Positions 37,809-43,190 of a stretch of 64,000 nucleotides of DNA are shown in pieces. Position 1 is the stretch's first letter. Every line of letters starts with the position of its first letter. Origin of the DNA: Fibrobacter sp. UWR3 (GTDB lineage Bacteria; Fibrobacterota; Fibrobacteria; Fibrobacterales; Fibrobacteraceae); NCBI RefSeq assembly GCF_900143055.1, contig NZ_FRCW01000001.1, forward strand, positions 124,001-188,000, read 5' to 3'. The notes below the pieces were generated by a model. That model saw only the letters and a program-made list of their open reading frames with translations, did no database searches and was not told the DNA's origin. Both the position numbers and the translations under genes were made by a program.

Positions 37809-39524
37809 ATGCGTATCAGGGAATCATTTAGCGGTCGCCGGTTCAGGTCGATGCTCTTTACGGCATCGGTATCCGTCTGTGCTGAATTCGTGAACGTGTT
37901 CATCGACAAGGTGGTCGCGGCGCAGTTTCTGGGCGATACCGCACTTGCTGCAATCTCGTTCTTCACTCCGCTATTCTCGTTCATATTCTTCATGAGCGCC
38001 GTCGTGATGGTGGGGAGCCTCGTGTGCTATTCCATCGAGCTGGGGCGCATGAACAAGGAGAAGGCTGACCGCTTTTTTGGCCAGAGCCTTATTCTCTCGT
38101 TTATTGTCGGCGTGTTCATGGTCGTGCTGTTTTCTGCAGGCAAGGGAATCATGTTCGGCGTCATGGAGGTTGAACCCGAACTGCTCAACTACGTGAACGA
38201 GTTCTACGGCTGGTTCCTGGGGCTCGCCTTCATTATCCCGCTAAACAATACGTTGCAGGAGATGGTCTACGTGGACGGCGACACGGGAACCTGCAAGGCC
38301 TCGTATGCCGCGCTCCTGCTCGGCAACCTCGTACTTTCGTGCATATTCTGTCGGTTCATGGGAATGTCCGGGATTGCCCTCGGTACGCTCCTGTCGGTGA
38401 TGCTCAGCATCATAGTACTTTGTACGCACTTTGCCCGCAAGAACAATTCGCTCCGGTTCGTGTGGCACTTTAACATACGCGATTCCATGTCGGTAATCCG
38501 GTTCAGCATCGCGGAGGCGTGCGAGTTCTTTTTCTTTGCGCTGTTCGCTGGCCTCATGAACCTTTACTTTGTTGCAAATTTCGGCAGTGACCGCATTACG
38601 GTGCTTTCGGTTGTTTACGAAATCGTGGAACTGAGCGTCGTGTTTAACGGCATATGGATGGCGGCAGAACCGCTCATAAACATCTATCGTGGCGAAGATA
38701 ATGACCGTGGAGTGCTCCAGGTGATGCGCTTCGTGAACTGGACGGTGCTCAAGGAGAGCCTGCTTGCGACCGCGATTCTCCTGTTTTGTGCCCCGCTGCT
38801 CACGCACGTGTTCCATATCCGTTCCGAGGAACTTGCCGGCGAAATGGCCTTTGCGATACGCGCGTGTGCCGTAGGCCTATGCCCGCTTGCTCTGGTGAAA
38901 ATCTACGCGGCGTTCCACGTACACGAAAAGCCTGTGCTCTCCTTCATATTCATTCTCTTCGTGATGTTCCTGAGCCCTGTCGTATGCGTGATGGGTGCGG
39001 GTGCGCTGTGGGGCGGCGAATACGTGTGGCTGGGCTTTGGTGCGGCTCCCTTCTTGGCGATGGGGCTATGCGCGGGCGTACAGGTGCTGATTTATGGCAG
39101 GGCGCGATTCCCGCTGTTGCTCGAACACCTCACGGTTGCGGATTACTGGCACATGCACGACATGCTCCTGACACCGGAAAACCTGATTGCCTACCGCGAC
39201 AGCGTGGGGGAACTGCTCAAGCGCAAGTCGGTGAACGAGATGAGTGTCGTGAAGGCGATGCTGTTGCTCGAGGAGATGGGCATGAGCGTTTATGAACGTA
39301 ATGCCGGCCGCCGCGTGTTTGTCGAATTTGCCGTGCTTTTGCGCGAAAAGGACTTTGTGCTTGTTATCAAGGACGACGGCAAGATTATGGACCTTACCGA
39401 TTTGGAACAGTCGGTGACGGGTCTGCGCGCCTACCTGGTGAACATGTTCATGACGGTCCAGCGCGAAAAGCAGTACCTGCTTACGTCGAACTACAACCGG
39501 CACGTTTTCCGGTTCGACCGCTAG
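37809..39524 (+). CDS. MATE-type transporter with C-terminal GHKL-like domain
   Basis: 571 residues. Residues about 15-430 form 12 membrane helices of the MATE/MOP fold (G-D-T-A-L-A-A-I-S near the start). About 140 soluble residues follow: the stretch V-V-K-A-M-L-L-L-E-E-M-G, the D-D-G-K-I-M-D loop and a final strand N-R-H-V-F-R-F resemble a small HATPase_c_2 (anti-sigma-kinase-like) ATP-binding domain. Ordinary MATE exporters end near residue 450-480. The fusion suggests nucleotide or regulator control of transport, or a sensor. The substrate is unknown. It is monocistronic with its own 110-bp upstream gap. Confidence 0.78.
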   Translation: MRIRESFSGRRFRSMLFTASVSVCAEFVNVFIDKVVAAQFLGDTALAAISFFTPLFSFIFFMSAVVMVGSLVCYSIELGRMNKEKADRFFGQSLILSFIVGVFMVVLFSAGKGIMFGVMEVEPELLNYVNEFYGWFLGLAFIIPLNNTLQEMVYVDGDTGTCKASYAALLLGNLVLSCIFCRFMGMSGIALGTLLSVMLSIIVLCTHFARKNNSLRFVWHFNIRDSMSVIRFSIAEACEFFFFALFAGLMNLYFVANFGSDRITVLSVVYEIVELSVVFNGIWMAAEPLINIYRGEDNDRGVLQVMRFVNWTVLKESLLATAILLFCAPLLTHVFHIRSEELAGEMAFAIRACAVGLCPLALVKIYAAFHVHEKPVLSFIFILFVMFLSPVVCVMGAGALWGGEYVWLGFGAAPFLAMGLCAGVQVLIYGRARFPLLLEHLTVADYWHMHDMLLTPENLIAYRDSVGELLKRKSVNEMSVVKAMLLLEEMGMSVYERNAGRRVFVEFAVLLREKDFVLVIKDDGKIMDLTDLEQSVTGLRAYLVNMFMTVQREKQYLLTSNYNRHVFRFDR

Positions 39525-40830: not shown

Positions 40831-41000
40831 TTTGATGAAGCTTGCAAATTGTTGGATGGAATGAATTCGGTTTTTGCCTAGATATTCTATTTTATAGATA
40901 ATGGCTCGCGGAATTTTATGGATTGTGTTGACGGTGTGCGCCCTGCTGTTTGTGGGGTGCTCGAACCATCCGCCTTCTGCGGCGCAGTTTATGAATGTGA
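40831..41000 (+). repeat. Duplicated segment, copy A
   Basis: About 170 bp (leader plus lipoprotein start) are nearly identical to 42479-42648, at an offset of 1648 bp. Both include TGCAAATTGTTGGATGGAAT and the ATGGCTCGCGG start. Confidence 0.85.
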
Positions 41001-41575
41001 GGAATGGAATTAATTTCGTTGCTGGCGGAGCGGTAAGAACAGGGGATTTAGATAACAGGAAAATTCCTGGGCGGGACGATGAATCGGTATCTTATGAAGA
41101 AGGGTATTGGAATACGGATTTAGCGCTGTCTTTTGCCTTTCCATATGCGGTAGTGGCGCTGGATTTAGAAGATTATACTTACAGAACCATTATGGGTGGC
41201 CGATCCCGGTATTTTGGGGTTCAGGGGTGGTACGGAATTGCAATCGATGAGCGCCGCGATGGGGCATCGTCGAGAATGTATCATGTGGGTGGAGTGATGC
41301 TTGTGGAACAGTATCCTGTATCTAAAAATTTCAAAGTGGGAATAAGTGAGCATGTATCCCGCAATTCGTATATGGTTGTCGATGATCCGGGGTGTTGCTC
41401 TATCAATACTTTGTATCCTGAGGTATATCCAGAATTTGGTGCCGGTGCTTATGTTGTGTATAAAGGTTTTTCGGCGGAATTTCGCTATGGAAGAGAAATC
41501 GGGGCGTCGAACAACCGCTTTTATTTTCAGTTGAACTATGCCATTTTCTTAGAGGAATGGAATTACAGCAAGTAG
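40901..41575 (+). CDS. Lipoprotein, paralogue of 42549-43190
   Basis: 224 residues. The signal ends L-F-V-G-C, a lipobox near residue 19. The mature part is strand-rich with Y-P-V-S-K-N-F-K-V-G-I-S-E-H-V-S-R-N and F-R-Y-G-R-E-I, shared with the second copy. The pattern suggests a beta-barrel-like or porin-associated lipoprotein. It is AT-rich compared with the core genes. There is no ribosome-binding site beyond a weak AGATAATG context. Confidence 0.65.
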   Translation: MARGILWIVLTVCALLFVGCSNHPPSAAQFMNVRNGINFVAGGAVRTGDLDNRKIPGRDDESVSYEEGYWNTDLALSFAFPYAVVALDLEDYTYRTIMGGRSRYFGVQGWYGIAIDERRDGASSRMYHVGGVMLVEQYPVSKNFKVGISEHVSRNSYMVVDDPGCCSINTLYPEVYPEFGAGAYVVYKGFSAEFRYGREIGASNNRFYFQLNYAIFLEEWNYSK

Positions 41576-41749: not shown

Positions 41750-41795
41750 ACGGATGTGCTTATCAACGGGGTGAGCGCCGGCCGCGGTGTGATTT
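41750..41795 (+). pseudogene. Remnant C-terminus of a second 40083-type gene
   Basis: D-V-L-I-N-G-V-S-A-G followed by R-G-V-I matches the end of the 40083-40820 product (D-V-L-I-N-G-V-S-A-G-C-A-V). The similarity breaks off where the toxin gene's 3' end begins. Confidence 0.55.
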
Positions 41796-42091
41796 TATTT
41801 GTCAAACAGGTCCGAGTGCGTTCCTGTGCGGACAAGTTCCAATATCAATACATCGTCTTGTTTACGGTAAACCAAGAGCCAATCCGGCTTGATGTGAAGT
41901 TCTCTATGCCCGGACCAATTTCCTCCAAGAGCATGATCCCGATACTTGTCTTCAAGAGGGGCGTCATTTGCGAGCTTTGAAATAACGGCGTATAATTCCT
42001 CCATATCGTAATTTCGTTTCTTTGCTCGCTTGACATCTTTCTTGTATTGTGATGTCCATAGGATTTTGTATCTAGGTCCTTTCTCTACCAA
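41795..42091 (-). CDS. YafQ/RelE-family toxin
   Basis: 98 residues. Y-K-K-D-V-K-R-A-K-K-R near the start, L-G-G-N-W-S-G-H-R-E-L-H-I-K-P-D-W-L-L-V-Y in the middle and L-V-R-T-G-T-H-S-D-L-F at the end are the full YafQ-type endoribonuclease pattern, including the His and Asp/Phe catalytic region near the C-terminus. It cleaves ribosome-bound mRNA. Its start overlaps the antitoxin stop by 7 bp. Confidence 0.92.
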   Translation of the reverse strand: MVEKGPRYKILWTSQYKKDVKRAKKRNYDMEELYAVISKLANDAPLEDKYRDHALGGNWSGHRELHIKPDWLLVYRKQDDVLILELVRTGTHSDLFDK

Positions 42092-42366
42092 GATTTCATC
42101 TCCCGAATGGCTTCGTTGACCGTATACGTCTTCATCTTCGAGGGGTTCTTCTGGTATTTCGCATAAATTTCATCGGACTCTTCCATCGCCTTGATGGTAT
42201 CCCGATTCGGACGGTTGATGGAAATTTCAAAAGGGATTCTTCCTTCGCGTAGAACCTGCTTGGTAAATACGTTGTATAGCCCCGAGATGGTCATTCCCAC
42301 CTTTTCGCAAAAATCGGCGATGCCCTTTTTGTCGTCGTCGTCCAGTGTAATCGTCAGATTTGCCAT
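42085..42366 (-). CDS. RelB/DinJ-family antitoxin
   Basis: 93 residues. The N-terminal ribbon-helix-helix is L-T-I-T-L-D-D-D-D-K-K-G followed by G-M-T-I-S-G-L-Y-N-V-F-T-K-Q-V, typical of DinJ. The acidic C-terminal half wraps the toxin. It would repress its own promoter. It pairs with the overlapping YafQ-type gene. Confidence 0.9.
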   Translation of the reverse strand: MANLTITLDDDDKKGIADFCEKVGMTISGLYNVFTKQVLREGRIPFEISINRPNRDTIKAMEESDEIYAKYQKNPSKMKTYTVNEAIREMKSW

Positions 42367-42478: not shown

Positions 42479-42648
42479 TTTGATAAAGCCTGCAAATTGT
42501 TGGATGGAATGAATTCGGTTTTTGCCTAGATATTCTATTTTATAGATAATGGCTCGCGGAATTTTATGGATTGTGTTGATGGTGTGTGCCCTGCTGCTTG
42601 CGGGGTGCTCAAGTCATCCGCCTTCTGCGGCACAGTTTATGAATGTGA
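42479..42648 (+). repeat. Duplicated segment, copy B
   Basis: Matches 40831-41000 almost base for base; see that entry. The upstream border falls just after the toxin-antitoxin promoter region. Confidence 0.85.
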
Positions 42649-43190
42649 AAGAAGACGAAGGTGATATTGTTGTTGGAGGGACCGCTAAAATCGGTGACCT
42701 CCATCGAGGCAAGAATCGGTTGCAGAGTGACTATTCTGATGTAGAACTCTTTGGTGATTTAGATGTTTCTCTTTTGTTTAGATACAGCCATTTGGTTCTG
42801 GGACTTTATTCGGAAAATCTTTATTCGATAAGCGGCCTTGCTGGTTCCCGATGGGAATACGTAGGCGTTCAAGGCTGGTTCGGTATGTCTGTTTTAGTGG
42901 TTGACAAGCAAGTCCCTATTTACGGCGGATTGATGTTAATCGAAGAATATCCTGTAAGTAAAAATCTTAGAGTGGGGCTAAGTGAACACATTTCGCGTAA
43001 TGCCCACGGTGTAGATAAGAATGAAGCTGGTTTAGGTTCTCCGGCTACGGGTTTTTATCATGAGTTTGGTACCGGAATTTATTTGGCGTATAAGGCTTTC
43101 TCGGTAGAGTTGCGATATGGACGGGAATTTGATGAACCGAGAAATCGCTTTTATTTTATGGTAAATTATGGCTTTGATTCTGATGGCTAG
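42549..43190 (+). CDS. Lipoprotein, paralogue of 40901-41575
   Basis: 213 residues. The signal is nearly identical to the first copy, with lipobox L-L-A-G-C. The mature parts diverge except for Y-P-V-S-K-N-L-R-V-G-L-S-E-H-I-S-R-N and L-R-Y-G-R-E-F. A conserved leader and signal over a diverged body indicates duplication followed by change in the exposed part. It is complete and in frame, so likely functional. Confidence 0.65.
   Translation: MARGILWIVLMVCALLLAGCSSHPPSAAQFMNVKEDEGDIVVGGTAKIGDLHRGKNRLQSDYSDVELFGDLDVSLLFRYSHLVLGLYSENLYSISGLAGSRWEYVGVQGWFGMSVLVVDKQVPIYGGLMLIEEYPVSKNLRVGLSEHISRNAHGVDKNEAGLGSPATGFYHEFGTGIYLAYKAFSVELRYGREFDEPRNRFYFMVNYGFDSDG

Follow-up and report, generated by a model that had tools for sequence, protein, structure and literature searches.

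The window analyzed here is a stretch of 64,000 nucleotides from Fibrobacter sp. UWR3 (contig NZ_FRCW01000001.1, positions 124,001 to 188,000), and the gene under study occupies positions 37809–39524 of its forward strand as an intact ORF with an ATG start (571 aa plus stop). Near it lie a patatin-like gene, which is divergent, and genes for DNA-alkylation repair and TfoX-N; no promoter was picked up when the region upstream of the ORF was scanned. The product joins a MATE-type membrane domain to an RsbW-like tail that is probably a pseudokinase. The membrane domain (residues 1–430; 37809–39098, forward strand) matches Pfam MatE (PF01554) over residues 20–175 (E 5.3e-14; 52.7 bits versus a curated cut-off of 24.9), and the nearest solved structures by sequence are MATE/MOP transporters. 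An AlphaFold2 model of the full-length protein, built from 22 homologues (mean pLDDT 86.7, pTM 0.86), shows a long helical membrane part up to approximately residue 429, followed by a separate alpha/beta domain (residues 447–571). When this model was compared with known structures by Foldseek, the MATE fold was retrieved (6fhz, 3vvs, 4mlb; E 5e-12 to 6fhz), with target TM scores between 0.77 and 0.82 for several MATE structures. By profile and predicted fold, the transporter part is a MATE exporter of the MOP superfamily, and this membership predicts that the protein exports a substrate in an ion-coupled manner. The count of 12 membrane helices and the cytoplasmic side of the tail are those expected from the MATE fold; in the secondary structure of the model, helices were merged, and a hydropathy scan gave no clean count.

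The tail (residues 445–571; 39141–39521, forward strand) is barely discernible by Pfam, where, searched alone, it gave a weak match to HATPase_c_2 (E 0.17). Searching its profile against the PDB by sequence yielded one chance match and nothing else, and a viral structure library contained no significant match. Modeled on its own, the tail reached a mean pLDDT of 71, with low values at the N-terminus and in the region of the former ATP lid. The closest structural neighbors by VIA-align were RsbW (6m37, Z 14.5), SpoIIAB (1th8, Z 14.3), and Usfx (8ih8, Z 14.3); scores to this group ranged from 13 to 14.5, that to SiaB was 11.5, and those to histidine kinases were about 8. Most of the best neighbors were taken from complexes with STAS proteins. 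Comparing the tail profile with that of RsbW kinases from related operons (hhalign) resulted in a probability of 95.5 (E 1.4e-8). As judged from the predicted structure, the tail thus has the GHKL fold of the anti-sigma kinases RsbW and SpoIIAB, and the proposal made from the letters alone, a MATE transporter fused to a GHKL-like domain of the anti-sigma type and related to HATPases, stands. A reading of the tail as a two-component histidine kinase was discarded: its best folds are of the RsbW class, and it directly follows the MATE domain.

Whether this fold still carries the residues for ATP-driven catalysis is another matter. The N-box (residues 488–498, EEMGMSVYERN; 39270–39302, forward strand) is degenerate, with Ser493 at the position of the Mg-binding asparagine. 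In one alignment of 47 distinct fused tails from the window's clade, not a single one had this asparagine (the replacements being L, T, F, S, V, A, E, or H), and the N-box Glu/Asp was kept; the asparagine is present in all 15 comparison sequences having that column, of which 13 are kinases of the RsbW type and two are distant fusions (L027 and L028). The G2 box/ATP lid, of which a remnant can be aligned at residues 537–540 (39417–39428, forward strand), is approximately 10 residues shorter in the clade than in the kinases and has lost most of its glycines, the third being kept in only 2 of the 47 tails. The G1 box (residues 522–528, DDGKIMD; 39372–39392, forward strand; D522 and G524) is retained, the aspartate of its D-x-G motif in 45 and the glycine in all 47 tails. 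Because the N-box asparagine is lost and the lid is shortened and degenerate, phosphotransfer by the tail, for instance onto a STAS protein, is unlikely, and the tail is probably a pseudokinase; because the G1 D-x-G pair is kept, it may still bind some ligand weakly. The ATP-binding capacity suggested by the sequence-only reading is therefore not borne out in any member of the clade that was compared, apart from the remaining G1 motif. More distant homologues differ in this respect, with the N-box asparagine being retained in the fusions L026, L027, L028, L089, and L094; ATP-binding residues are thus not missing from every homologue. Among the fusions sampled from Bacillota (L089–L100), the N-box varies, with Asn in L089 and L094 and Val in L100, so its loss may have occurred more than once.

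Despite the degenerate catalytic motifs, other positions of the tail are strictly conserved. Across 22 homologues, M492, N498, E506, T559, N563, and R564 do not vary, the last three lying in a conserved motif near the C-terminus (residues 554–564, KQYLLTSNYNR; 39468–39500, forward strand). Pairwise omega values (NG86) were between 0.00 and 0.18 for the tail and between 0.06 and 0.16 for the membrane part, which is the same range, also for pairs inside the clade of orphan copies to which that of the window belongs. That the tail is a vestige without present function, as its degenerate catalytic residues and the orphan state of the window's copy would permit, is very improbable in view of this purifying selection, orphan clade included, and of the lack of any stop or truncation in 44 genes.

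The same fusion was sought in other genomes and found in Fibrobacter, Spirochaetota, and Bacillota. In Fibrobacter, 44 full-length, stop-free genes are present in 35 of 80 genomes, with the named homologues of 96–97% identity being Fibrobacter MAGs; outside this genus, homologues occur in Treponema/Spirochaetia, Selenomonadales, and Traorella. As the fusion is full-length and free of stops in all 44 genes and recurs in Spirochaetota and Bacillota, it is real and not a chance join. Two Fibrobacter genomes and one other genome of the phylum encode distant MATE-GHKL fusions, and a 200-genome sample of one Bacillota class contains 20 such genes. In a tree of the MATE part alone, all rows with degenerate tails form one clade (100/100), the sister of which is L089, a fusion with an intact N-box (99/95); that of the window falls within the Fibrobacter rows. 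Split fusions (L067, L072, and L073) were taken as possible frameshifts and left out. In one of these, from a Traorella MAG (L067:10001-11704), separate ORFs encode a MATE part of 452 aa and a tail portion of approximately 100 aa, owing to a frameshift or a natural split.

The sequence-only reading had proposed that the fusion could sense or signal through a partner-switch system, and at the level of the family a link to such systems was recovered. When 16 Fibrobacter genomes were searched with profiles for STAS, SpoIIE, and HATPase_c_2, a small STAS or SpoIIE gene was found within 5 kb of 13 of the 21 fusions versus 1 of 64 plain MATE genes (Fisher p 3e-9, a value overstated by the relatedness of the genomes), and the only linked plain MATE gene adjoins a fusion cluster. 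Among the named loci, 24 of 39 carry a partner gene within 1.5 kb, many of them separated by only 2–25 bases or overlapping. All three kinds of partner, the STAS anti-anti-sigma protein, the SpoIIE phosphatase, and the RsbW kinase, are encoded directly beside the fusion in relatives, in the orders SpoIIE::RsbW-STAS-fusion (G026 and G007), RsbW-STAS-fusion (L044/L045), SpoIIE::RsbW-fusion-STAS (L042), and STAS-fusion-SpoIIE-RsbW (two Spirochaetia). The distant Fibrobacter fusions that keep the asparagine (L027/L028) face a divergent STAS-SpoIIE-RsbW operon (L108/L109), and in the sample of the Bacillota class SpoIIE lies within 5 kb of 8 of the 20 fusions. Every aligned STAS protein has the phosphoacceptor serine, and the SpoIIE partners in G026 and L107 have dCache and HAMP sensors. 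With the profiles used, neither STAS nor SpoIIE was seen near the Treponema members L051–L053 and L058, and no sigma factor was among the few annotated neighbors of the pseudokinase loci. Co-regulation alone could account for the linkage.

A single-module nonribosomal peptide synthetase (NRPS; adenylation, carrier, and condensation) is, in many loci, encoded by the gene that precedes either the fusion or STAS; in several cases, genes for a carboxynorspermidine-decarboxylase-like (NspC-like) protein and for a protein of 380 aa that has no Pfam match come before it. In most genomes with such an NRPS-fusion cluster, the sole condensation domain found is the one in that cluster. Because no condensation domain was found in the genome of the window (G000) nor in G045, G059, G029, and G026, the window's clade has been uncoupled from the NRPS. 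Single-module NRPS genes (A-T-C) near genes for the MATE-pseudokinase and SpoIIE were observed in L062 (4404-9683, forward strand), L054, L059, L065, L046, and L048; these loci belong to Fibrobacter and Spirochaetia, and the NRPS cluster may have been shared or transferred.

Beside the window's own copy, the link to a partner switch did not hold. Anti-anti-sigma partners were searched for near the gene, and none is encoded on its contig; in the window's genome, STAS genes are present only on contigs C2 and C8, and SpoIIE only on C6. Likewise, 7 of 7 named loci of the orphan clade have no linked partner within the stretch covered. The neighborhood is only partly kept in this clade, a DNA-alkylation gene also preceding the fusion in L040. 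As the window's clade nests within partner-linked rows (L008, L009, L010, L042, and L043), its orphan state is, by phylogenetic placement, a derived one. G029 has its orphan fusion arranged in tandem with a MATE gene of the usual, tail-less kind (L110:8709-11831). Candidate partners for the window's copy are encoded elsewhere in the genome: contig C8 carries GGDEF-GGDEF-RsbW-RsbV (L104:8246-11303), and contig C6 encodes a dCache-HAMP-SpoIIE-RsbW protein. The sister species G007 has the same gene order as C8 with the fusion attached (GGDEF-GGDEF-SpoIIE::RsbW-RsbV-fusion), and the identity between both loci is 82% for RsbV, 80% for RsbW, and 48% for the first GGDEF protein. Since the C8 locus is syntenic with the linked locus of G007, the simplest reading is that it constitutes the likely partner module of the window's copy, unlinked and acting in trans. 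The GGDEF-GGDEF-RsbW-RsbV locus, noted at L104 and at L103:9023-15769, also hints that cyclic di-GMP and partner switching may be connected.

The gene arrangements suggest a signaling switch that acts directly on a transporter and not on gene expression. In the ancestral arrangement, the MATE-tail fusion would be the output of a partner switch, in which a SpoIIE-type phosphatase (with a dCache/HAMP sensor in some relatives) and an RsbW-type kinase set the phosphorylation state of the STAS protein. Once dephosphorylated, the STAS protein would bind to the RsbW-like tail, as RsbV binds to RsbW, without being phosphorylated there, and the STAS-bound tail would gate or assemble the exporter. In the window's genome, where the transporter is unlinked from such a module, it would be served in trans by the GGDEF-GGDEF-RsbW-RsbV proteins of C8. 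We lend slightly more belief than doubt to the core of this proposal, namely, that the exporter with its degenerate RsbW/SpoIIAB tail is a partner-switch output whose export is gated by docking of the dephosphorylated STAS protein. What computation shows is the fusion with its fold, the lost N-box asparagine and lid, the purifying selection on the tail, the gene linkage in the family, and the synteny of C8; the docking itself, its effect on export in either direction (on or off), the substrate, and the putative action in trans are inferences. The wider reading, with the exporter as the direct output, the pseudo-RsbW domain as STAS receptor, secretion controlled post-translationally and not via a sigma factor, and the cargo in many relatives probably being a nonribosomal peptide, falls just short of an even chance.

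The information could also flow in the opposite direction, with the transporter being the sensor, its conformation or substrate load making the tail hold or release the STAS protein, which, when free, would have its effect on another target: a sigma factor, a diguanylate cyclase, or the kinase. Linkage between fusion and partner genes fits this equally, GGDEF genes lie directly upstream of the switch in G007 and at the C8 locus, and the distant fusions with an N-box asparagine could be transporter-controlled kinases. However, many clusters have no recognizable downstream target beyond the exporter and the NRPS, and a separate SpoIIE with its own N-terminal region already serves as input, which makes a sensing transporter unlikely, albeit the strongest competitor of export gated by STAS docking. 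RsbW and SpoIIAB are dimers, and the tail, sharing the fold of this family, might pair with an active RsbW kinase and bring it to, or restrain it at, the membrane without binding STAS at all. Although several operons contain, or lie near, a gene for a kinase that looks active, most NRPS-linked loci have STAS and SpoIIE near the fusion and no RsbW gene, and such pairing is accordingly quite doubtful. Similarly improbable is that the tail senses a nucleotide or another small ligand to gate the MATE domain, the partner-switch genes nearby merely controlling expression: 45 of 47 tails do retain the D-x-G motif of their adenine pocket, but the N-box asparagine and the lid have disappeared from all members or almost all, the closest folds are STAS-binding kinases, and the partners are linked across several phyla in differing gene orders.

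Partner switches are known chiefly for governing sigma factors; a few act on other outputs, for example diguanylate cyclases. The classical RsbU-RsbV-RsbW and SpoIIE-SpoIIAA-SpoIIAB systems (sigma-B and sigma-F) share with the present one a SpoIIE-type PP2C phosphatase, a STAS protein with a serine, and a GHKL kinase, and the fold of RsbW/SpoIIAB is that of the tail; here, in contrast, a membrane exporter carries the RsbW-like domain as a fusion, and catalytic motifs of this domain are gone. ClbM is the MATE exporter of the colibactin NRPS cluster, which resembles the many relatives in which the fusion gene lies beside NRPS genes, whereas the window's own genome lacks a condensation domain; we know of no GHKL tail or partner switch associated with ClbM. 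In the SiaABCD system of Pseudomonas aeruginosa, unphosphorylated SiaC activates the diguanylate cyclase SiaD (PMC8457831). There too, a phosphatase and a kinase together govern the phosphorylation state of a binding partner, and the direct target of this partner is not a sigma factor; that target, however, is a cyclase with a stalk domain, whereas the output proposed here is an exporter that bears a pseudo-RsbW tail. SulP/SLC26 transporters carry a C-terminal STAS domain (PMC8256260) and are, therefore, likewise fused to one half of the RsbV/RsbW pair; SulP holds the STAS half, whereas this MATE protein holds the RsbW half, with STAS being a separate protein. In the excerpted text of a coculture transcriptome study of F. 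succinogenes UWB7, the efflux genes reported are TolC, RND, and ABC components, not this gene (PMC8406330). The open-access papers searched described neither a MATE-RsbW fusion nor control of a MATE exporter by a partner switch, although a database may already mention it. If the proposal is true, a transporter carrying half of a partner switch would represent a new output class and a new way of regulating MATE exporters, and would add a pseudokinase with a testable role to the bacterial GHKL superfamily. The family spans Fibrobacter, Treponema, and Bacillota, many of them from rumen or gut; its genes often adjoin the sole condensation-domain gene detected in a genome, a hint that a switch may control the release of a small NRPS product.

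Downstream of the fusion gene, the window contains two similar predicted lipoproteins (40901–41575 and 42549–43190, both on the forward strand), each starting with MARGILWIVL. Between them, on the reverse strand (41795–42366), lies a small gene pair resembling a toxin of the RelE/YafQ type and its antitoxin.
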